Positions 3,991 to 61,602 of a stretch of DNA of 64,000 bases are shown here, in pieces. The stretch is from NCBI RefSeq assembly GCF_002007105.1, contig NZ_MVBC01000001.1, forward strand, positions 620,001 to 684,000. Direction: 5' to 3'. The notes under the pieces were generated by a model. It saw only the letters and a program-made list of their open reading frames with translations. It searched no databases and was not told where the DNA came from. This DNA is from Hymenobacter sp. CRA2 (GTDB taxonomy: Bacteria; Bacteroidota; Bacteroidia; Cytophagales; Hymenobacteraceae). Position numbers and translations under genes: made by a program. Every line of letters starts with the position of its first letter. Positions within the stretch are counted from its first letter, which is position 1.

Positions 3991-5118
3991 ATGCACGAGG
4001 TTATGGCTTTACCGATGACTGCGCCGCGCAATCAGTTTCGCGTGGCTACGACTTCCGCCGAGCTGGCGCAATTTCGGCAGCAGGCCTGGCGCCTGTACCA
4101 GCCCGCCGCGCCGGTAGCCGTGGAGGCGTTTGGGCAAACCTGGCAGTTGCGGCCGGGCCTCACCTTCACGCCCTTTGCCAACGCGGTACGCTGCACGGCC
4201 CACTGCGCCTTTTGCTCCGAGGAGCTGCAGCGCTACGACGGACACCAGCTCACGGCCAAGCGCCTCATTGACGACTACCCGGCCTACTTTGCCCGGCTGC
4301 GGGAGTCATTGCAGCCGTTCCGGGGGCTGCCGCTGGGGTTGAGTCTCTCGGGGTTGGAAGCCACGGCCGAGCCGCAGTGGCTGCGCGAGCTGCTGGCTTG
4401 CCTGAGCGGACTGGAAGCCGAGGGCGTGGTGTTCGACGAGAAAGTGCTGTATACCAACGGCAGCGGCTTCGTGCTCAGCCCCGACCTAGGCCCGGCGCTT
4501 CAGGAATTCGGCCTAAGCCGCCTGGAACTCTCGCGCTGCCACGACGACGAAGCCGTGAATCAGCAGATCATGCGCTTCAACCGCAACCAGCCCGTGCGCC
4601 ACAACGCCGTGTACGCGGCCACGGTGCGCACGCTGCACCAGCACTTGTTCGTCAAGAACTCGTGCATCCTCACGCAGGCGGGCGTTGCTACCCTGGCTGA
4701 TGTGGAACGATATCTGGCCTGGGCCGCCGGGCTGGGCGTGCGTCGGGTCGTGTTTCGAGAGCTGAGCCGGCTGGAAGGCAGCTACCTGCCCAACGTGTTT
4801 ACCGATTGGATTGAGGCCCAGCGCGTGCCCATCGAGCCGCTGCTGACAGCCGCGGTACCCACGCTGGAACGCCCGCGCGCCGGCTGGCAGTACGCGGGCA
4901 GCACCTTCGGCTACTATTACTACAACGAGCATTACCGCTGGCAGGACACCGAGGTCATCTTCGAAACCAGCAGCTACCCCGCTCTGCAGACGGCCAATGC
5001 CACCGGCGTGCTGCAGAAGCTCATCCTGCATTCGGACGGCACTTTGGCTGGCGACTGGGACCCCGACAGCCGGGTAATCAGCCGCGCCTCGGCCCCAGCG
5101 GCAGCCCCTCCGCTATGA
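3991..5118 (+). CDS. Radical SAM protein, unknown function
   Basis: The 375-residue product carries CTAHCAFC, the CX3CX2C iron-sulfur cluster motif, at C68/C72/C75, preceded by a segment (GLTFTPFANAVR) typical of the first beta strand of the radical SAM barrel. Barrel-type segments continue to about residue 270. No extra cysteine cluster (SPASM-like) is seen near the C-terminus, which is aromatic-rich (FGYYYYNEHYRW). The open frame reaches upstream to 3886, but that would include the terminator of the preceding gene, so the start at 3991 is preferred; 4003 and 4015 are alternatives. The stop overlaps the next gene's start (ATGA), linking it to a nucleotidyltransferase-fold protein. The substrate is unknown. 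Confidence 0.85.
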   Translation: MHEVMALPMTAPRNQFRVATTSAELAQFRQQAWRLYQPAAPVAVEAFGQTWQLRPGLTFTPFANAVRCTAHCAFCSEELQRYDGHQLTAKRLIDDYPAYFARLRESLQPFRGLPLGLSLSGLEATAEPQWLRELLACLSGLEAEGVVFDEKVLYTNGSGFVLSPDLGPALQEFGLSRLELSRCHDDEAVNQQIMRFNRNQPVRHNAVYAATVRTLHQHLFVKNSCILTQAGVATLADVERYLAWAAGLGVRRVVFRELSRLEGSYLPNVFTDWIEAQRVPIEPLLTAAVPTLERPRAGWQYAGSTFGYYYYNEHYRWQDTEVIFETSSYPALQTANATGVLQKLILHSDGTLAGDWDPDSRVISRASAPAAAPPL

Positions 5119-44889: not shown

Positions 44890-44907
44890 ATCCAGTTTAA
44901 GCGTTGG

Positions 44908-44980
44908 GGAGTTTAAGCGTTAAGGAGTTGCGGAGTTGGGCGTCCCCCTAAACTCTCAAACTTCTTAACGCTTAAACTCC
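44908..44980. repeat. Inverted repeat upstream of the gltX promoter
   Basis: Perfect 17-bp arms GGAGTTTAAGCGTTAAG (44908-44924) and CTTAACGCTTAAACTCC (44964-44980), with partial pairing further in. A 12-bp direct repeat AGTTTAAGCGTT (44894 and 44910) overlaps the left arm. It ends 13 bp before the -7 element of gltX. Confidence 0.7.
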
Positions 44981-44993
44981 TTAACCCTTTCCC

Positions 44994-54001: not shown

Positions 54002-55870
54002 TTAGCCCTTCGTGTTCAGCAATTGCTGACGCAGGGCCTGCTGGGCCGGCGTGGCCGCAGCACTGGGCTTGAGGTAGTAGCGGATTTCCACTTCGTACTC
54101 GCGCGGCACGGCCTTGGCCTCGGTGGTGGTGGTGCCGCGGCGCACCGTCAGGCGCACGGGCGTTTTGGCATCGGGCTCTTCCACCAGAGGGCGCAGCTGC
54201 CGCTCGGCGTTTTGCAGCGTCACCGGCTGGCCATCCACGGCCACGATGACGTCGCCGTTCTGCAGCCCGAAGGCGTTGGTTTGCGGTGTCACTTCGGCGG
54301 CCTGGAATTCCTGCTTTTTCTCATCGTAGCGGAAGCCCAGCTGGCCGAAAGCCAGCACCTTGGCCGGGGCGCGGTCGGCGTAGTTCCAGCCGATTTTGCT
54401 CAGGTACTCGGCCAGCGGCAGCGGCTCGGTGCCCACCACGTAGCGGTCGAAAAACTGCTGCACGTCGGGGTGCGTGAGGGCTACCACCTCCGGGATGAGC
54501 TGCGCGTCCTCGAAGGAGCGCGAGGGGCCGTACTTATCACGCAGCGCCAGCATCACGTCGCGCAGGGTCTTTTTGCCGCTGGTCAGCTCCTGAATGCGGA
54601 TGTCGAGCAGCAGGCCGATGAGGGCGCCCTTCTTGTACACGTTCTCGTACATCTTGTCGTAGGGCGACTCCAGGATGCGGCGGCTCATTTCGGTGAACGA
54701 CACGCCGGCCGGGTACTTGTCGGCGTCGCGGATTTTCTCCTGCATCGTTTCGCGGAACTGCTCCTCGGTGGTGAGGCCAGCGCGCACCTGCACCAGGTGG
54801 GCGAAGTACTCCGTCACACCTTCGTACAGCCACAGGTGCTGCGACATTTTCGGGTCGCGGAAGTCAAACTCGCCGATTTCGCGAGAGTGGATGTTGAGCG
54901 GGGCCAGCATGTGCAGAAACTCATGCGAGGCCACCTCGCGCACCATGTCGTTGAGGGCCGCCGTGTCGTCGCGCTCGGGCAAGAAGTACACCGAGGAATA
55001 CGAGTGTTCCATGGCCCCAAAGCCGCCGGTTTTGCGGTTGATGACGGTCGAAGTCTGGAAGTCGGGGAAGTACATCAGGAACTCGTAGCGCGGCACCGGC
55101 ATCTTGCCGAAAAACTGGCCCAGCGCCTCGGCCATCGGCCGCATGGTTTCGGCGACCTGCCGGGCCTTTACCTTACCCATTTCCGATACTACGGCCACGC
55201 CGATGCGGGCGCCGCCGGCCACGAAGCTGGTGGTATCGGGCTTGCTGTAGAGAATAGGGCCATCGGCCAGGCTCACGTAGCTATCGGCGGTGAAGGTGTC
55301 CTCCGTGCTCGTACGGCGGGCGGGCAACCCGGTAGCGGCGTACAACTCGGGGGCGTGCTGCACTTTCACCTCGTAGGGCAGCATTTTGTAGCCTTCGAGG
55401 TAGCCGTAGAGGCCGTAGTGGTTCAGCACAAAATTCGGGTGGGCCGTGCCCCCATCGAAGTTGGTCCCGCCGGGCTGAAATATGTAGCTATCATCCTGCT
55501 TGGCGTCCCAGGTGTCGTCCACGCTGTACTCCAGCCGGGCCAGCTTTTTAGCCTTGTCGATGACGAACAGATTGTCGCCTTCGCGCTTCACTTTCAGCTT
55601 CTTGCCCTTGTCGTCGTAGGCCACGAAGTCCTGCACGAAGCGGCCGTAATCCTTTTTCGAGTAGGAGCCCGGCACCACGCTCGGCATCACGTACGTCACC
55701 TGGTCTTCGCGCACCGGTGGGGTATTGACGACGATGCGCAGCTGATCGGAACTGGCGGCGGGCTGGGTAGCCACGTTGATGCGGTAAGCGCCGGCCGGAG
55801 CAGCCGTCTGGGCCTGGGCGGTGAGGGTGAATAGCGCGCCGACTGCGGCGCCGAATAGCGGGTGTCTCAT
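54002..55870 (-). CDS. M61-family glycyl aminopeptidase with PDZ domain
   Basis: The 622-residue product has a signal peptide (cleavage near AQAQ), a beta-rich N-terminal domain (to about 200), then the metalloprotease core with HEFLH at about 316-320 and the downstream WLYEGVTEYFAHL carrying the third zinc ligand Glu. A PDZ domain (about 510-585, NAFGLQNGDVIVAVDGQPV) is near the C-terminus. M61 peptidases of Bacteroidota are periplasmic or surface aminopeptidases. The start at 55870 puts the signal peptide first. An array of three dyads lies 104-168 bp upstream. Confidence 0.93.
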   Translation of the reverse strand: MRHPLFGAAVGALFTLTAQAQTAAPAGAYRINVATQPAASSDQLRIVVNTPPVREDQVTYVMPSVVPGSYSKKDYGRFVQDFVAYDDKGKKLKVKREGDNLFVIDKAKKLARLEYSVDDTWDAKQDDSYIFQPGGTNFDGGTAHPNFVLNHYGLYGYLEGYKMLPYEVKVQHAPELYAATGLPARRTSTEDTFTADSYVSLADGPILYSKPDTTSFVAGGARIGVAVVSEMGKVKARQVAETMRPMAEALGQFFGKMPVPRYEFLMYFPDFQTSTVINRKTGGFGAMEHSYSSVYFLPERDDTAALNDMVREVASHEFLHMLAPLNIHSREIGEFDFRDPKMSQHLWLYEGVTEYFAHLVQVRAGLTTEEQFRETMQEKIRDADKYPAGVSFTEMSRRILESPYDKMYENVYKKGALIGLLLDIRIQELTSGKKTLRDVMLALRDKYGPSRSFEDAQLIPEVVALTHPDVQQFFDRYVVGTEPLPLAEYLSKIGWNYADRAPAKVLAFGQLGFRYDEKKQEFQAAEVTPQTNAFGLQNGDVIVAVDGQPVTLQNAERQLRPLVEEPDAKTPVRLTVRRGTTTTEAKAVPREYEVEIRYYLKPSAAATPAQQALRQQLLNTKG

Positions 55871-55974
55871 CGAAAACAGCAATGAAAAAATATGCTAACG
55901 GCGAAGGTAGCCTTCAGCGTGCTACCCACGCGGAAAAGCCGCGCGAACTGCCAGCGGGACTCCTGGGCCTGATA

Positions 55975-56038
55975 CCGGACAACGGTATGTCCGGGCGCGG
56001 ACATACCGTTGTCCGGGCGCGGACATCCTGTTGTCCGG
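55975..56038. promoter_or_regulatory. Array of three CGGACA-N6-TGTCCG dyads
   Basis: Three 18-bp dyads start at 55976, 55998 and 56020, exactly 22 bp apart. The first two are mirror images and form a perfect 19-bp stem (arms 55975-55993 and 55998-56016) with a 4-nt loop; the third differs only in the spacer. They lie between the end of the AraC gene and the start of the M61 gene. Confidence 0.75.
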
Positions 56039-56058
56039 GTATAAACCGGCGCAGGGGC

Positions 56059-56895
56059 TCAGCGCCGCTGCATGTGGCGGCTCTGCTTGCGCTCCTGCGG
56101 GATGAAGTCGGTGGGGCGGCGGCTGGTGAGCTGGTAGAAAGTGTTGCTGAAGGCCGAGAGGCTGTTGTAGCCCACGGCGTAGGCTATTTCGCTGATGCTC
56201 ATCTTGGTTTGGAGCAGCATTTCCATGGCCGCTACCACGCGCCGCAGCTTCAGGTACTGCACGAAGGTCAGGCTCATGGTCTGCTGAAACAGCCGCGAGA
56301 GGTTGCGGGTGCTGAAGCCGAACTGCCGCGCCACCCCGGGCAGGCTCAGCGGCTCGGCCAGGTGCTGAAACAGGTAGGTGAGCACCGGGCGCAGGCGCGG
56401 GTCGTCGGTGGTGGGTAGCACGATGGGCAGCGGGTGGCGGCTGATTTCGGGCAGCACCAGCTTCAAGGACTTCAGAAAGAGAAACTTGTCCTCATCATTG
56501 GGGCCGATGTGGCCGTCCCACCGCTCGGTGTAAATGAGCATTTCGTAGAGCAGCGTGGTGACGGGGTAGATGCCCAACCGGCTGAAAAACGGGTGGCTCA
56601 GGTCGTCGTGGGTATCGGCGAAGCAGAGGTTGTGCAGCAGCCCGCGCGGCGTGCGCACCTGGATGAAGTGGTCGAGCCGGGGTGGAATCCAGACGTAGTG
56701 CCGGGCCGGCAGGAAGTAGGTCTTGTCGGTGGTGTTCAGGAAGGCCAGCCCCTCCTCTACGTACAGCAGCTGCCCCTTTTGGTGGTGGTGCAGGGGGTAG
56801 TTGTGCTCGGTGCGCTCGTGCTGCACGAACATGGTTTCGGGCCGGCTGTCGATGTCGGCGTTCTGCTGCAGGAAGGCTTCGGGGGAGGCGGGCAT
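56059..56895 (-). CDS. AraC-family regulator divergent from the efflux operon
   Basis: The 278-residue product has a cupin-like sensor (about 25-80, HNYPLHHHQKGQLLYVEEG...YVWIPP) and two helix-turn-helix motifs at about 185-270 (LSLPGVARQFGFSTRNLSRLFQQT, SISEIAYAVGYNSLSAFSNTFYQL). This is the AraC type with a small-ligand sensor. It diverges across 100 bp from TolC-HlyD-MFS genes, so it probably controls their expression in response to an exported compound; that is inference from position. Confidence 0.9.
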   Translation of the reverse strand: MPASPEAFLQQNADIDSRPETMFVQHERTEHNYPLHHHQKGQLLYVEEGLAFLNTTDKTYFLPARHYVWIPPRLDHFIQVRTPRGLLHNLCFADTHDDLSHPFFSRLGIYPVTTLLYEMLIYTERWDGHIGPNDEDKFLFLKSLKLVLPEISRHPLPIVLPTTDDPRLRPVLTYLFQHLAEPLSLPGVARQFGFSTRNLSRLFQQTMSLTFVQYLKLRRVVAAMEMLLQTKMSISEIAYAVGYNSLSAFSNTFYQLTSRRPTDFIPQERKQSRHMQRR

Positions 56896-56966
56896 GGGCC
56901 GTATACGTTGGCTGAATCGAGCAAATCTATGGCAGATTATAAAAAGCCTATGCTTTGGGGGTAGGG

Positions 56967-56974
56967 TACCTTTG
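56967..56974 (+). promoter_or_regulatory. -7 promoter element for the efflux operon
   Basis: TACCTTTG fits TAnnTTTG and is 22 bp upstream of the tolC-type ATG. Confidence 0.6.
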
Positions 56975-56995
56975 CGTCGTCAAAAAACACCAACG

Positions 56996-58339
56996 ATGAA
57001 CTACCGTAGTTGGGCTTGCCGCGGTTTGGTAAGCCTCTTACTGTTTGCCACTTACCCCCTATCCGCCCAGACGCCGCCTACCGCTCAGCCACTCACGCTG
57101 CAGCAGGCCTGGCAACAGGCCGAAGTCCACAACCACGACATCGAGCTGCAACGCCGGCAGGTGGGCATCAGCGAGGAGCTGGTGCAGGACCGCGCTGCCC
57201 AGCGCCTGCCCAAGGTGGAAGCTGGCGGCGAATACGCTTACCTGGCCGGCCTTTACGCCTTCGAGCCCAACGCCGGCCTGCACCACGGCGAGGCCGTGCC
57301 GGTGCCGCCGGGCCCGCACGCCTACAACGTGCACCTCGACGCCTCGCTGAACCTGTACAGCGGCGGCCGGGTGAAAAAGCAGATCGAGGAGCAGCACCTC
57401 TCGGCCGAAGTCGAGACCGAGCGGCTGCACCTCACGCAGAACGACGTGCGCCTGCGCGTGGCCCTGGCCTACCTCGACCTGCAGCGCAACCTGGCCAACC
57501 AGCAGCTGGCCGACAACTCCATCCGGGAGTCGGAGAAGCGGCTGCGGCAGATCCAGGCGCTGTTTCGGCGCGGCGTGGTGCTGCGCAGCGACGTGCTGCG
57601 CGCCGAGCTGCAGCACTCCCGGCAGCAGCTTTTGCTCACCGAAATCAAGAACAACATCACCTTGGCCAACCAGCGCCTGAACCTGCTGCTGGGCGCGCCC
57701 GAGGAGCAGCTGAACCAGCCCGCGCCGGAAATTTTGCCCACGGGCGGCCCCGCCGTGCCCACCGATTACGCAGCCTCCGCCGCCCAGGCCCAGCAGGCCC
57801 CCGAGCTGAAGATTGCCGGGCTGCAAACCAAAATCAGCGAAAACAAGCTGGAGCAGACCGAGGCGGCCAAGAAACCGCACGTCGGGGCATTCGCCGAGTA
57901 CGGCTACACCTACCCCAACCGGCTGGTCTTCCCCAACGTGGCCCAGATATACAGCATCGGACAGGTGGGCGTGCGCGTGGGTTACGACCTCTCGGCGCAC
58001 TACATCGACCGCCACGCCGAGAAAGCCGCCGCCCTCACCGTGCAGCGGCAGCAAGTAGCCGAGCAGGCCGCCCTGGACCGCAAGAAGGAGGAAGTCAACA
58101 CGGCTTACGTGCGCTACCAGGAAACGCAGGAACGCATTCGCGTGGCCGAGCAGAGCATCCGGCAGGCCGCGGAAAACTACCGCATCGTCAATAGCACCTA
58201 CTTCAACCAGCTGGCCCTGCTCACCGACCTGCTCGACGCCGACAACCAGCTGCTGCAGGCACGCATCGACCTGGTGACGGCCCAAACGCAGGCCGCCGCC
58301 CACTACTATCAGCTACAAAAGGCCCTGGGCCAGCTGTAA
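56996..58339 (+). CDS. TolC-family outer membrane efflux protein
   Basis: The 447-residue product has a signal peptide (cleavage near PLSAQ) and two OEP repeats (about 25-225 and 235-445), each opening with a helical segment (LTLQQAWQQAEVHNHDIELQRRQ) and containing LNLYSGGRVKKQIEEQ. It forms the outer-membrane channel of a tripartite pump. It is the first gene of the operon; the adaptor starts 15 bp after its stop. The longer frame from 56801 reads through the AraC promoter region and is rejected. Confidence 0.93.
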   Translation: MNYRSWACRGLVSLLLFATYPLSAQTPPTAQPLTLQQAWQQAEVHNHDIELQRRQVGISEELVQDRAAQRLPKVEAGGEYAYLAGLYAFEPNAGLHHGEAVPVPPGPHAYNVHLDASLNLYSGGRVKKQIEEQHLSAEVETERLHLTQNDVRLRVALAYLDLQRNLANQQLADNSIRESEKRLRQIQALFRRGVVLRSDVLRAELQHSRQQLLLTEIKNNITLANQRLNLLLGAPEEQLNQPAPEILPTGGPAVPTDYAASAAQAQQAPELKIAGLQTKISENKLEQTEAAKKPHVGAFAEYGYTYPNRLVFPNVAQIYSIGQVGVRVGYDLSAHYIDRHAEKAAALTVQRQQVAEQAALDRKKEEVNTAYVRYQETQERIRVAEQSIRQAAENYRIVNSTYFNQLALLTDLLDADNQLLQARIDLVTAQTQAAAHYYQLQKALGQL

Positions 58340-58354
58340 CCGCCTTATCCCGAC

Positions 58355-59410
58355 ATGAAACCGAAGAATACCGAGGTGCGGGCCGACCGCATCATCACCC
58401 GTTTTACCACCTGGATTGCCGGCCTGCTGCTGCTGGGCCTCATTGGCTGGGGCAGCACTCTGGGCTGGCGCCTGCTGCAGTACGAAGAAACCAACGACGC
58501 GCAGGTGGAAGAGTACATCAACCCCATCAACGCCAAGGTCGGCGGCTTTATCCGGCAGGTGCGCTACCGCGAAAACCAGGCCGTGCACGCCGGCGACACG
58601 CTGGTCGTGCTCGACAACCGCGACTACCTGGTGCCGGTGGCCGAGGCCGAAGCCGCCCTGGCCAATGCCCAGGCGCAGCTGCAAGTGCTGGGCTCGAACG
58701 TGCAGACCTCGGAGCGCAGCTCCCAGGTCTGCCAGGCCCAGATCGGGGCCGCCCGGGCCCGCCTGGCCCAGCAGCAGCAGGAGTACGAGCGGTACCACCA
58801 GCTGCTCGCCGACGAGGCCGTGACGGCCCAGCAGTTTGAGCGCGTGCAAACGGCCCTGGCCGTGGCCCGCTCCGAGTACGAAGCGCTGCAGAACGGCTAC
58901 GCCTCATCCTTGTCGAAGGTGAGCGAAGTGCAAAGCCAGCGGCCGGTGCTGCTGGCCGAAGTGAAGCGCCGCCAGGCCATGCTGCAGAAAGCCCGCCTCG
59001 ACCTCTCCTACACGGTGGTGACGGCGCCCTACAGCGGCAAAATGGGCCGCCTGAGCATTCAGGAAGGCCAGCTGGTGCAGCCTGGCGCGCCCCTGGCGTA
59101 CATCGTGAATGAGGAAGCCGGCAAGTGGGTGACGGCCAACTTCAAGGAAACCCAGCTGCGCCACATGCACGTGGGCCAGCCGGTGAGCATCGAAACCGAC
59201 GCCTACCCCGGCCAGCAGTTTCACGGCCGCATCGAGTCCCTGGCGCCGGCCACCGGGGCGCGCTTTGCCCTGCTCCCGCCCGACAACGCCACCGGCAACT
59301 TCATCAAGGTCACGCAGCGCATTCCAGTCCGCATTCAGCTCACCGACGCAGCCCCGCTGACGGCCCGGCTGGCGGCGGGCATGAACGCGCTGGTTACCGT
59401 CGCCAAGTAA
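58355..59410 (+). CDS. HlyD/EmrA-family membrane fusion protein
   Basis: The 351-residue product has one N-terminal membrane span (about 20-40, TTWIAGLLLLGLIGWG), a lipoyl-like half (AKVGGFIRQVRYRENQAVHAGDTLVVLDNRDYL), a long helical hairpin (about 85-205, LAQQQQEYERYHQLL...) and the second lipoyl half with APYSGKMGRLSIQEGQLVQPGAPLAYI. EmrA-type adaptors couple an inner-membrane MFS pump to TolC. It begins 15 bp after the tolC-type gene and ends 10 bp before the MFS gene. Confidence 0.95.
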   Translation: MKPKNTEVRADRIITRFTTWIAGLLLLGLIGWGSTLGWRLLQYEETNDAQVEEYINPINAKVGGFIRQVRYRENQAVHAGDTLVVLDNRDYLVPVAEAEAALANAQAQLQVLGSNVQTSERSSQVCQAQIGAARARLAQQQQEYERYHQLLADEAVTAQQFERVQTALAVARSEYEALQNGYASSLSKVSEVQSQRPVLLAEVKRRQAMLQKARLDLSYTVVTAPYSGKMGRLSIQEGQLVQPGAPLAYIVNEEAGKWVTANFKETQLRHMHVGQPVSIETDAYPGQQFHGRIESLAPATGARFALLPPDNATGNFIKVTQRIPVRIQLTDAAPLTARLAAGMNALVTVAK

Positions 59411-59420
59411 GCCCGCTGGC

Positions 59421-61001
59421 ATGGACGCTTCGCAATCCGTCTTTAAGTCCTGGGCGCCGGAGTGGCTGGTGCGCACGGCGTTGTTTGCGGCCCTGCTGCC
59501 CTCGGTGGCGCTGCTGGGCCTCTACATGGGCAGCCCCGCCGACGCGGCCGGCTACTACGGCATCGAGCCGGCCGACGTGCAGTTCTCGGTGCTGGTGTAC
59601 TACGCCGGGCTGGCGGCTTTCTTCCCCCTCGACCCGCGCTTCTCCAGCTACTTCGCCCCGCGGCAGTATTTCCTCGTCTGCCTGCTGCTGCTCATCGGCA
59701 GCGTGTGGCTCTGCACCTTCGTGCACCAGCTGCCCCTGTTCCTATTCATCCGCTTCTGTCAGGGCCTGGTGGCCGGGGCCATCGGCAGCCCCTGCCTCAC
59801 GCTCATCTTCGCCCGCCTCGATTCGGCGCGGGCACGGGCCATGGGCTACACGGTGTTCTACGGCATCTTCCTCGCGGCCGGGCCGCTGACCACGGCGTTG
59901 TCGGGGCTGGCGCTGGAGCACTTCAACTTCCAGATGCTCTACAGCCTGTACATGCTGCTGGAGCTGCCGGGCGGCCTGCTGCTGGTGCTGCTGCTCAACA
60001 ACGTGCGGCTGAAAAAGCGCGTGCCGCTCTACCAACTCGACTGGCCCAGCTTCGTGCTGCTGGCTCTGGCCCTGGAACTCCTCGCCTACTGCGCCGCCTA
60101 CGGGCAGCAGCTGTACTGGCTGCAGGATACCGGCATCGGGCTGGCCGTGCTCGGGGCCGGGGTGTTCGGCGGGCTGTTTGTGCTGCGGCAGCGGCACCAG
60201 AAGCGGCCCTACATCAACCTCAGCGTATTCCGCTACCGCAACTTCCGCCTGGGCCTGGGGGTGTTCTTCGTGTTCTACCTCTGCCGCGGCACCAGCAGCA
60301 TTGCCACCAGCTACTTCGTGACGGTGCTGCGCCTGGATGCGGCCCACTTGGCCCTGCTGCAGCTGGCTACGCTGCTGGGCCTGGTGCTGGCCATGAGCCT
60401 GGCGGTGCGCTTCGTGCTGGTGGGCACGCCCATGCGCCGCATCTGGCTCACGGGCTTCGGTCTGCTGCTGCTCTACCACGGCTGGATGTACTTCCTTTTC
60501 GGTCCCGGCCAGAGCGTGGAGGCGTTCTTCGTCCCGATGTTTGTGCAGGGCCTGGGCACCGGCGCGCTCATGGTCCCGATTACCGTCTTTACCCTCTCGT
60601 CGCTGCCGGCCAACATCAGCGTGTCGGGCTCATTTATGGCCGTCATCACCCGTTTTCTGGCCTTTAGCACGTCCATGGCGCTGGTCAGCTTCTTCCAGCT
60701 GCTGTGGCGCGCCGACAACCAGAACCGCTTCGCCCAGGAAGCCACTGCCACCAACGGCCTGCTCACCACACGCCTGCAGGGCTACCAGCAGACCTTGCAA
60801 GGCAAAGGGCTGGCGCTGGAAACGGCTCAGCACGCGGCCGTCAAGCTGCTGGCCGGCGCCACGGAGGTACAGGCGCAGCTGCGCTACGCCATGAGCTATT
60901 ACGGCATGGTCAGCGTGGCACTGATGGGCCTGCTGGTACTGCTATTGCTCATGCCTCACCTGCGCCAGGGCATGTTGTCGTTCCGGCAGCGGCCCCTGTA
61001 A
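59421..61001 (+). CDS. MFS efflux pump (EmrB/DHA2-like)
   Basis: The 526-residue product has about 14 membrane segments, matching the DHA2 drug:H+ antiporter group that works with EmrA-type adaptors. The first segments, DPRFSSYFAPRQYFLVCLLLLIGSVWLCTFV and FIRFCQGLVAGAIGSPCLTLIFARLD, resemble the motif A/C layout. Together with the two preceding genes it forms an inner-membrane to outer-membrane exporter; the substrate is unknown and may be the AraC regulator's ligand. Confidence 0.92.
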   Translation: MDASQSVFKSWAPEWLVRTALFAALLPSVALLGLYMGSPADAAGYYGIEPADVQFSVLVYYAGLAAFFPLDPRFSSYFAPRQYFLVCLLLLIGSVWLCTFVHQLPLFLFIRFCQGLVAGAIGSPCLTLIFARLDSARARAMGYTVFYGIFLAAGPLTTALSGLALEHFNFQMLYSLYMLLELPGGLLLVLLLNNVRLKKRVPLYQLDWPSFVLLALALELLAYCAAYGQQLYWLQDTGIGLAVLGAGVFGGLFVLRQRHQKRPYINLSVFRYRNFRLGLGVFFVFYLCRGTSSIATSYFVTVLRLDAAHLALLQLATLLGLVLAMSLAVRFVLVGTPMRRIWLTGFGLLLLYHGWMYFLFGPGQSVEAFFVPMFVQGLGTGALMVPITVFTLSSLPANISVSGSFMAVITRFLAFSTSMALVSFFQLLWRADNQNRFAQEATATNGLLTTRLQGYQQTLQGKGLALETAQHAAVKLLAGATEVQAQLRYAMSYYGMVSVALMGLLVLLLLMPHLRQGMLSFRQRPL

Positions 61002-61560: not shown

Positions 61561-61602
61561 ACAACGGGCCTACGACTTTGACGTCGTAGGCCCGTTGTAT
61601 TT
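61561..61602. terminator. Bidirectional terminator between doxX and recJ
   Basis: Perfect 16-bp arms ACAACGGGCCTACGAC (61561-61576) and GTCGTAGGCCCGTTGT (61583-61598) with a 6-nt loop and a T-rich end. Confidence 0.88.

Follow-up and report, generated by a model that had tools for sequence, protein, structure and literature searches.

Symmetric DNA sites repeated in phase are familiar from the tandem repressor operators of phage lambda, where several of them stand about two helical turns apart, an arrangement suited to cooperative dimers; indeed, symmetric, phased, multi-site layouts are typical of cooperative repressor operators. HU proteins, to our knowledge, are usually not sequence-specific, and the HU-like proteins that have multiplied in Bacteroidetes have roles that are little known. 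A further class of symmetric elements comprises the REP, BIME and REPIN repeats of the GTAG and CGTC families, short palindromes between genes that tend to cluster and occur in either orientation (PMC3733652, PMC6006769), a REP being recognized by its terminal tag, the tetranucleotide GTAG or CGTC (PMC3733652).

The array considered here lies in a stretch of 64,000 nucleotides of Hymenobacter sp. CRA2 (hereafter the window), and it has counterparts elsewhere in this genome and in its relatives. These arrays are likewise short palindromes between genes, frequently grouped and facing either way, and, as in the REP class, the loci of one genome have words in common; they differ from that class in occupying few loci per genome, in keeping a near-constant period of 22 bp and in being coupled to HU genes instead of a Y1 transposase. 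Read by eye, the ends of the window array and of its units carry no GTAG or CGTC tag, an observation that concerns this array only. A REP borne by a RAYT (Y1) transposase was rejected, as this genome has no match to PF01797 and as 30 Y1 loci from other genomes showed no array, either to a covariance model (R2, see below) or by the 22-bp score. Like the lambda operators, the arrays place symmetric sites about two turns apart; unlike them, they do not stand by the promoter of their regulator, they are scattered and their words vary from species to species. As for the HU-HIG or HU_rel family (PF18291, TIGR01201), the protein linked to the arrays matches both profiles, and what sets it apart is the palindrome array after its gene. 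We found no description of such arrays, nor of an array placed after an HU-HIG or HU_rel gene, in the open-access literature, most subscription papers being outside the scope of the search.

A tandem array of perfect dyads

The first-pass annotation had reported three CGGACA-N6-TGTCCG dyads at exact 22-bp intervals, the first two being mirror images, and all of this holds. Sites without mismatch were found by exact pattern search only at 55976..55993 (unit 1, CGGACAACGGTATGTCCG), 55998..56015 (unit 2, CGGACATACCGTTGTCCG, the exact reverse complement of unit 1) and 56020..56037 (unit 3, CGGACATCCTGTTGTCCG), none of them having a strand. The whole array, as the covariance-model match G000:C11:675974-676039, covers 66 positions (55974..56039, again with no strand), the window array itself having been used to train both models, R1 and R2. 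Tandem Repeats Finder places a repeat of period 22 at 55976-56039, with a score of 91, the top of its 13 rows.

The genome-wide search that had been proposed as a check returned the exact dyad three times in the 5.88-Mb genome, all at the window array, and the pattern read backwards, used as a control, did not occur there. The dyad is absent from seven other genomes of the genus that were searched; among 118 relatives, the genome itself being counted, 17 hold at least one exact copy, single except in this genome and in G087. A regulon defined by the exact dyad is therefore rejected: the only copies are those of the window, and with two mismatches allowed the 324 matches are no more than background, the backwards control giving 362.

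When the window was scored for triplets of palindromes sharing a period, over periods 14-32, 17 out of 21 was reached only at this array and only at period 22. The best among 200 letter shuffles of the window was 18, so that chance is not negligible on this score alone, and it is the repeated words and the evidence from relatives that speak against a chance origin. With its three palindromic units at 22-bp steps, the window array is almost certainly a member of a Hymenobacter family of 22-bp palindrome arrays.

A dispersed family of arrays

The 16-mer GGACATACCGTTGTCC, core of units 1 and 2, recurs exactly at C14:25196, in the gap between genes named trpB and trpA by eye, where it opens a second 22-bp array with a degenerate middle unit; through it, unit words are common to the window array and another array of the same genome. 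Another array met in the search with GGACATACCGTTGTCC, at C5 of this genome, has AGACA arms, and a pattern of two units at 22 bp led to a further array at C43 and to two more in another genus (G016), with matches in 2 of 58 genomes and none for the control. Directly before the trp array stand palindromes of another word (AAATCGACCTATCGATTT, AAAACGACCTGTCGTTTT; L117 ~1435-1496, G000:C14).

A covariance model built from eight arrays (R1) found arrays in 6 of 118 relatives, among them a weak match in G030 that was not confirmed by a wider model built from 14 arrays (R2); with the latter, 16 of 204 family genomes, belonging to two of six genera, proved to be carriers, and a run with a laxer filter gave 6 genomes with arrays out of 39, one of them weak (G017, E 0.026), all these carrier counts being lower bounds biased to GACA-type words, because the arrays of the models had been found through such words. 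Arrays usually have three units, up to about six, and carrier genomes have one to six detected array loci. Across 38 loci, 76 of 77 steps between units are of 22 bp, in a chaining of units that favoured 22.

R1 detects four arrays in this genome, and the four that it detects in H. jeollabukensis (G004) stand at matching sites: an HU-like gene, M61, trpB/trpA and a gene of peroxidase type; R2 finds a fifth in G004 (C24), and other array places recur in further species. The loci are scattered and unrelated, and their neighbours have no obvious common function, going by names given by eye, such as peroxidase (gpx), RlmD, RecQ, isocitrate lyase, coaD, rfaE, trpB and trpA. These neighbours are a simple pick of the longest open reading frame, frames across arrays having been judged spurious by eye, and our impression is that the arrays are intergenic. 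In a comparison of 41 arrays (the 38 and three with other words after HU genes), arrays of one genome have a mean longest run in common of 11.8 against 9.8 (permutation p 0.007), and arrays at the same place in different genomes one of 9.3 against 9.8 for different places. Sharing is thus higher within genomes and not between same places: an array stays put and keeps its frame as its letters change. Words differ between species, period and symmetry persist, and the case shows how the architecture of an array can be held at one place during this turnover.

It is here that the main rival to binding by an HU-like protein must be considered, a passive repeat akin to REP or BIME, maintained and spread between genes by copying or template switching with no dedicated binder, the HU locus being its long-standing residence. 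The scatter over unrelated loci, the words common within a genome and the patchy distribution of arrays among genomes would all be expected from such a repeat, and a dedicated transposase is missing in some REP families (PMC3733652). Yet the detected loci are few, the period is nearly constant, the same places are kept between species and the coupling to HU genes is repeated while the words change; moreover, the presence of a Y1 transposase, not found in this genome, is no predictor (11 of 16 carriers, 13 of 18 non-carriers). We consider a passive repeat rather unlikely. The arrays form a new and unusual family, well supported, with a likely protein partner.

Neighbours of the window array

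As annotated, the array separates an AraC-family gene, which is upstream of it, from an M61 peptidase gene downstream; both genes are on the minus strand. The M61 gene (domain matches to PF17899, PF05299 and PDZ) covers 54002..55870 on that strand, and TACCTTCG (55902..55909, minus strand), about 65 bp downstream of the array, is a possible -7 element of its promoter. The array lies about 20 bp beyond the stop codon of the AraC-family gene (56059..56895, minus strand; HTH_18 and AraC_binding). A block of AraC, outer-membrane efflux, HlyD-like and MFS genes occupies 56059-61001 of the window, between M61 and DoxX.

In G001, G002 and G004 (H. jeollabukensis) M61 has a DoxX-like gene as its immediate divergent neighbour; in the last of these an array stands between the two genes, and in G001 and G002 there is none at that place. 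Conservation across species was another of the proposed checks: among 27 named M61 loci in which the stretch around the gene start was read by eye, only that of H. jeollabukensis has an array. The gap upstream of M61 is occupied in other Hymenobacter species by different long inverted repeats, around GAACGTCATTC and similar words (L037, L039, L041, L043, L046).

The annotation had seen in the array a cooperative operator, with the neighbouring AraC protein as a possible binder, or else a double hairpin ending the AraC transcript. Adjacency to the AraC stop codon speaks for both. No relative of the window AraC protein (E 1e-3) was found at any of the 27 M61 loci, 4 kb on each side, that of the H. 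jeollabukensis array included, and at the 37 other array loci the single match is weak (25%, E 0.001), some 3 kb from the trp array. With arrays at unrelated loci, which do not go with an AraC gene, the AraC-operator reading was rejected; the AraC neighbour is secondary, because G004 has its array between divergent genes without it, and its presence beside the window array is incidental. As for the end of the transcript, a terminator scan found no terminator-like site on the minus strand between 55800 and 57100, and no T-run follows the hairpins of the array, so that an intrinsic terminator was rejected as well. An array serving the AraC gene in either way is very improbable.

Double-stranded DNA or RNA

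The two arms of the palindromes change together: 45 double-change cells were counted against 18.1 in shuffles, none of 500 shuffles being as high, an excess that is not to be read as a probability because the aligned arrays are kin and had been picked for being palindromic. Such compensatory changes would also be made by an RNA element, in the form of tandem hairpins in the 3' regions of messengers, stabilizing transcripts or aiding termination. At HU loci the array does come after the stop codon and before a terminator-like hairpin, and the strand of the window array folds far better than shuffles (z -7), although a stable RNA fold is uninformative, as any strong palindrome gives one. Now, an RNA hairpin tolerates G-U and should therefore display an excess of G-T; none is seen, since the sense strands of HU-locus stems have 18 G-T against 17 A-C mismatches (an approximate count, as the unit picker took another register in L258 and L264 and non-array units as the third units of L256, L260 and L262), without strand bias. 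Hairpins, besides, do not need a fixed spacing, and the window has no Rfam match at gathering score, which rejects identity with an Rfam family. An RNA element is quite unlikely. The absence of a G-T excess, the helical spacing and the position of the H. jeollabukensis array between divergent genes favour double-stranded DNA. Of the cooperative operator first proposed, the two-turn layout on one face of the helix fits the near-constant 22-bp steps, the paired arm changes and the lack of strand bias; the link to AraC is unsupported.

An HU-like gene precedes many arrays

Because many arrays directly follow an HU-like gene, the distribution of that gene was surveyed. In this genome it occupies 24180-24611 of C5, on the minus strand. 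Its product belongs to HU-HIG or HU_rel (PF18291, E 1.9e-30; TIGR01201, 79.8 bits for a cut-off of 68.6), and among solved structures a single chain, that of the HU 1b8z, passes the cut-off with the HU profile. In 34 genomes a query of 60 residues found the gene in 12 of 16 carriers and in none of 18 others. The whole protein, used as a query against 204 genomes, gave 20 genes in 19 genomes, that is, in 12 of the 16 array carriers and 7 of the 188 others (Fisher p 1e-11, kinship being ignored); no such gene was found at cut-off in the carriers G001, G142, G158 and G195. In a RecJ tree of 30 genomes carriers are interspersed with non-carriers, and kinship-independent pairs, too few for significance, go the same way in 3.4 cases, the opposite way in none and show no difference in 1.6 (2.3, 0 and 2.7 when only arrays away from HU loci are taken). 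Once kinship is corrected, the association is not significant.

The DNA after the 20 HU stop codons is more telling, as it holds arrays also in genomes missed by R2, with words such as AAATCGACGGGACGATTT and ACTCTTCCGCAACAGT. By a score blind to words, 22 is the best or joint-best of 19 palindrome periods after 18 of the 20 genes (13 alone, 5 tied), against 7 of 60 RecJ flanks taken as a control, and the mean palindrome score is 16.45 in HU tails and 10.95 in RecJ flanks. Compared with 100 shuffles, 15 of the 20 tails beat all, two were reached once and three (L260, L265, L269) are in the range of the shuffles. A score of at least 17 at period 22 is met in 9 of 20 HU tails and nowhere in 503,801 control bases (four times at other periods), a cut-off that misses imperfect arrays, the control loci L021 and L222 holding a true array below it. 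With an array after nearly every HU gene that was read, the HU-like protein is a candidate reader of the arrays.

Outside the family, none of six Bacteroidales plasmid relatives of the HU protein had a raised 22-bp score, and the pairing was rejected there on the 6 of 14 matches that were read, L271 having 22 as its best period with a score of 13, not raised. A viral source of the gene was rejected too, no relative having been confirmed in a scan of viral contigs. At L269 (G004:C12) a second HU-like gene, 49% identical, is followed by GCTCGTGCGCAC-type words spaced by 22 bp. Directly past the HU-like gene and its array in this genome (L175:1498-3863, G000:C5) stands a Septu-type pair, PtuA and PtuB (PADLOC E 3.6e-125 and 9.9e-75; below the NCBIfam cut-offs). 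A similar ATPase gene follows the HU locus in several other species and different genes do so in others, so that the site may be a defence hot spot.

HU type and array word

HU type and array word are inherited jointly. On the HU tree, where support is low (strong for 2 of 17 inner branches), GACA-type words accompany one set of HU proteins, other words occurring mostly outside that set, the exception being G170, with AACATCAGGAGGTT among GACA-type relatives. On this same tree G128 groups with G156, whose word resembles its own; by RecJ it goes with G129 and G130. Comparison of G128 with G129 in steps of 60 bases shows 54 identities directly before the HU start and 57 directly after it, then 36-47 over the HU body and 20-31 over the tail and array, then 58 and 59 in the next two stretches past the array, identity dropping again further out; the immediate flanks of HU body and array are 90-98% identical. 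G129 and G130, over the same HU body, are identical at 54-58 positions out of 60. So HU body and array, both divergent between near-identical flanks, were exchanged together in G128. Linkage of two adjacent elements could by itself produce this, and the joint exchange supports, without proving, a co-adaptation of HU and array.

Speaking against such a co-adaptation, the arrays first detected away from the HU gene in G128 and G146 do not carry the word of the HU locus. G128 also has a second 22-bp array beside the first (L154 ~4181-4246), with words like ACTCTTGGGCAACAGT, the type that follows the G135 and G198 HU genes; this being yet another word, several word types stand side by side.

We may tentatively propose, as a reading that is possible rather than probable, that Hymenobacter HU-type proteins are encoded with their own cognate DNA address, the array after the gene and a few chromosomal copies, protein and address changing together and being exchangeable from species to species as one cassette. 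If so, these would be sequence-specific, rapidly re-addressed nucleoid proteins. An HU-type gene travelling with a matching array would make a private, evolving DNA target of an HU-fold protein accessible to test, and the natural exchange between G128 and G129 offers a ready matched pair of alleles.

A proposed mode of action

We may thus picture the window array as an inherited, fast-evolving member of its Hymenobacter family, most likely acting as double-stranded DNA. Each symmetric unit would hold a single symmetric dimer of protein; two turns apart, such dimers would be aligned on one face of the helix, allowing cooperative binding. For the binder, the HU-like protein is the best candidate, its own gene elsewhere preceding such an array; the M61 array would be a secondary site, where this protein would shape or regulate the region upstream of M61. 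That a protein binds, which protein it is and what it may do to M61 we infer from the layout and context of the arrays, and we hold cooperative binding of the HU-like protein at the window array to be evenly poised between right and wrong. The position upstream of M61 and the symmetric, phased layout would also suit an operator array for some other sequence-specific regulator, neither AraC nor HU-like; words that change completely between related species, and neighbour genes without obvious common function, make such a regulator hard to credit.

Other repeats in the window

Two further features are worth mentioning. Two stretches of 16-bp tandem repeats, apparently inverted copies of each other, are present at 44894-44989, and a perfect hairpin with 16-bp arms lies downstream of DoxX, at 61561-61598.
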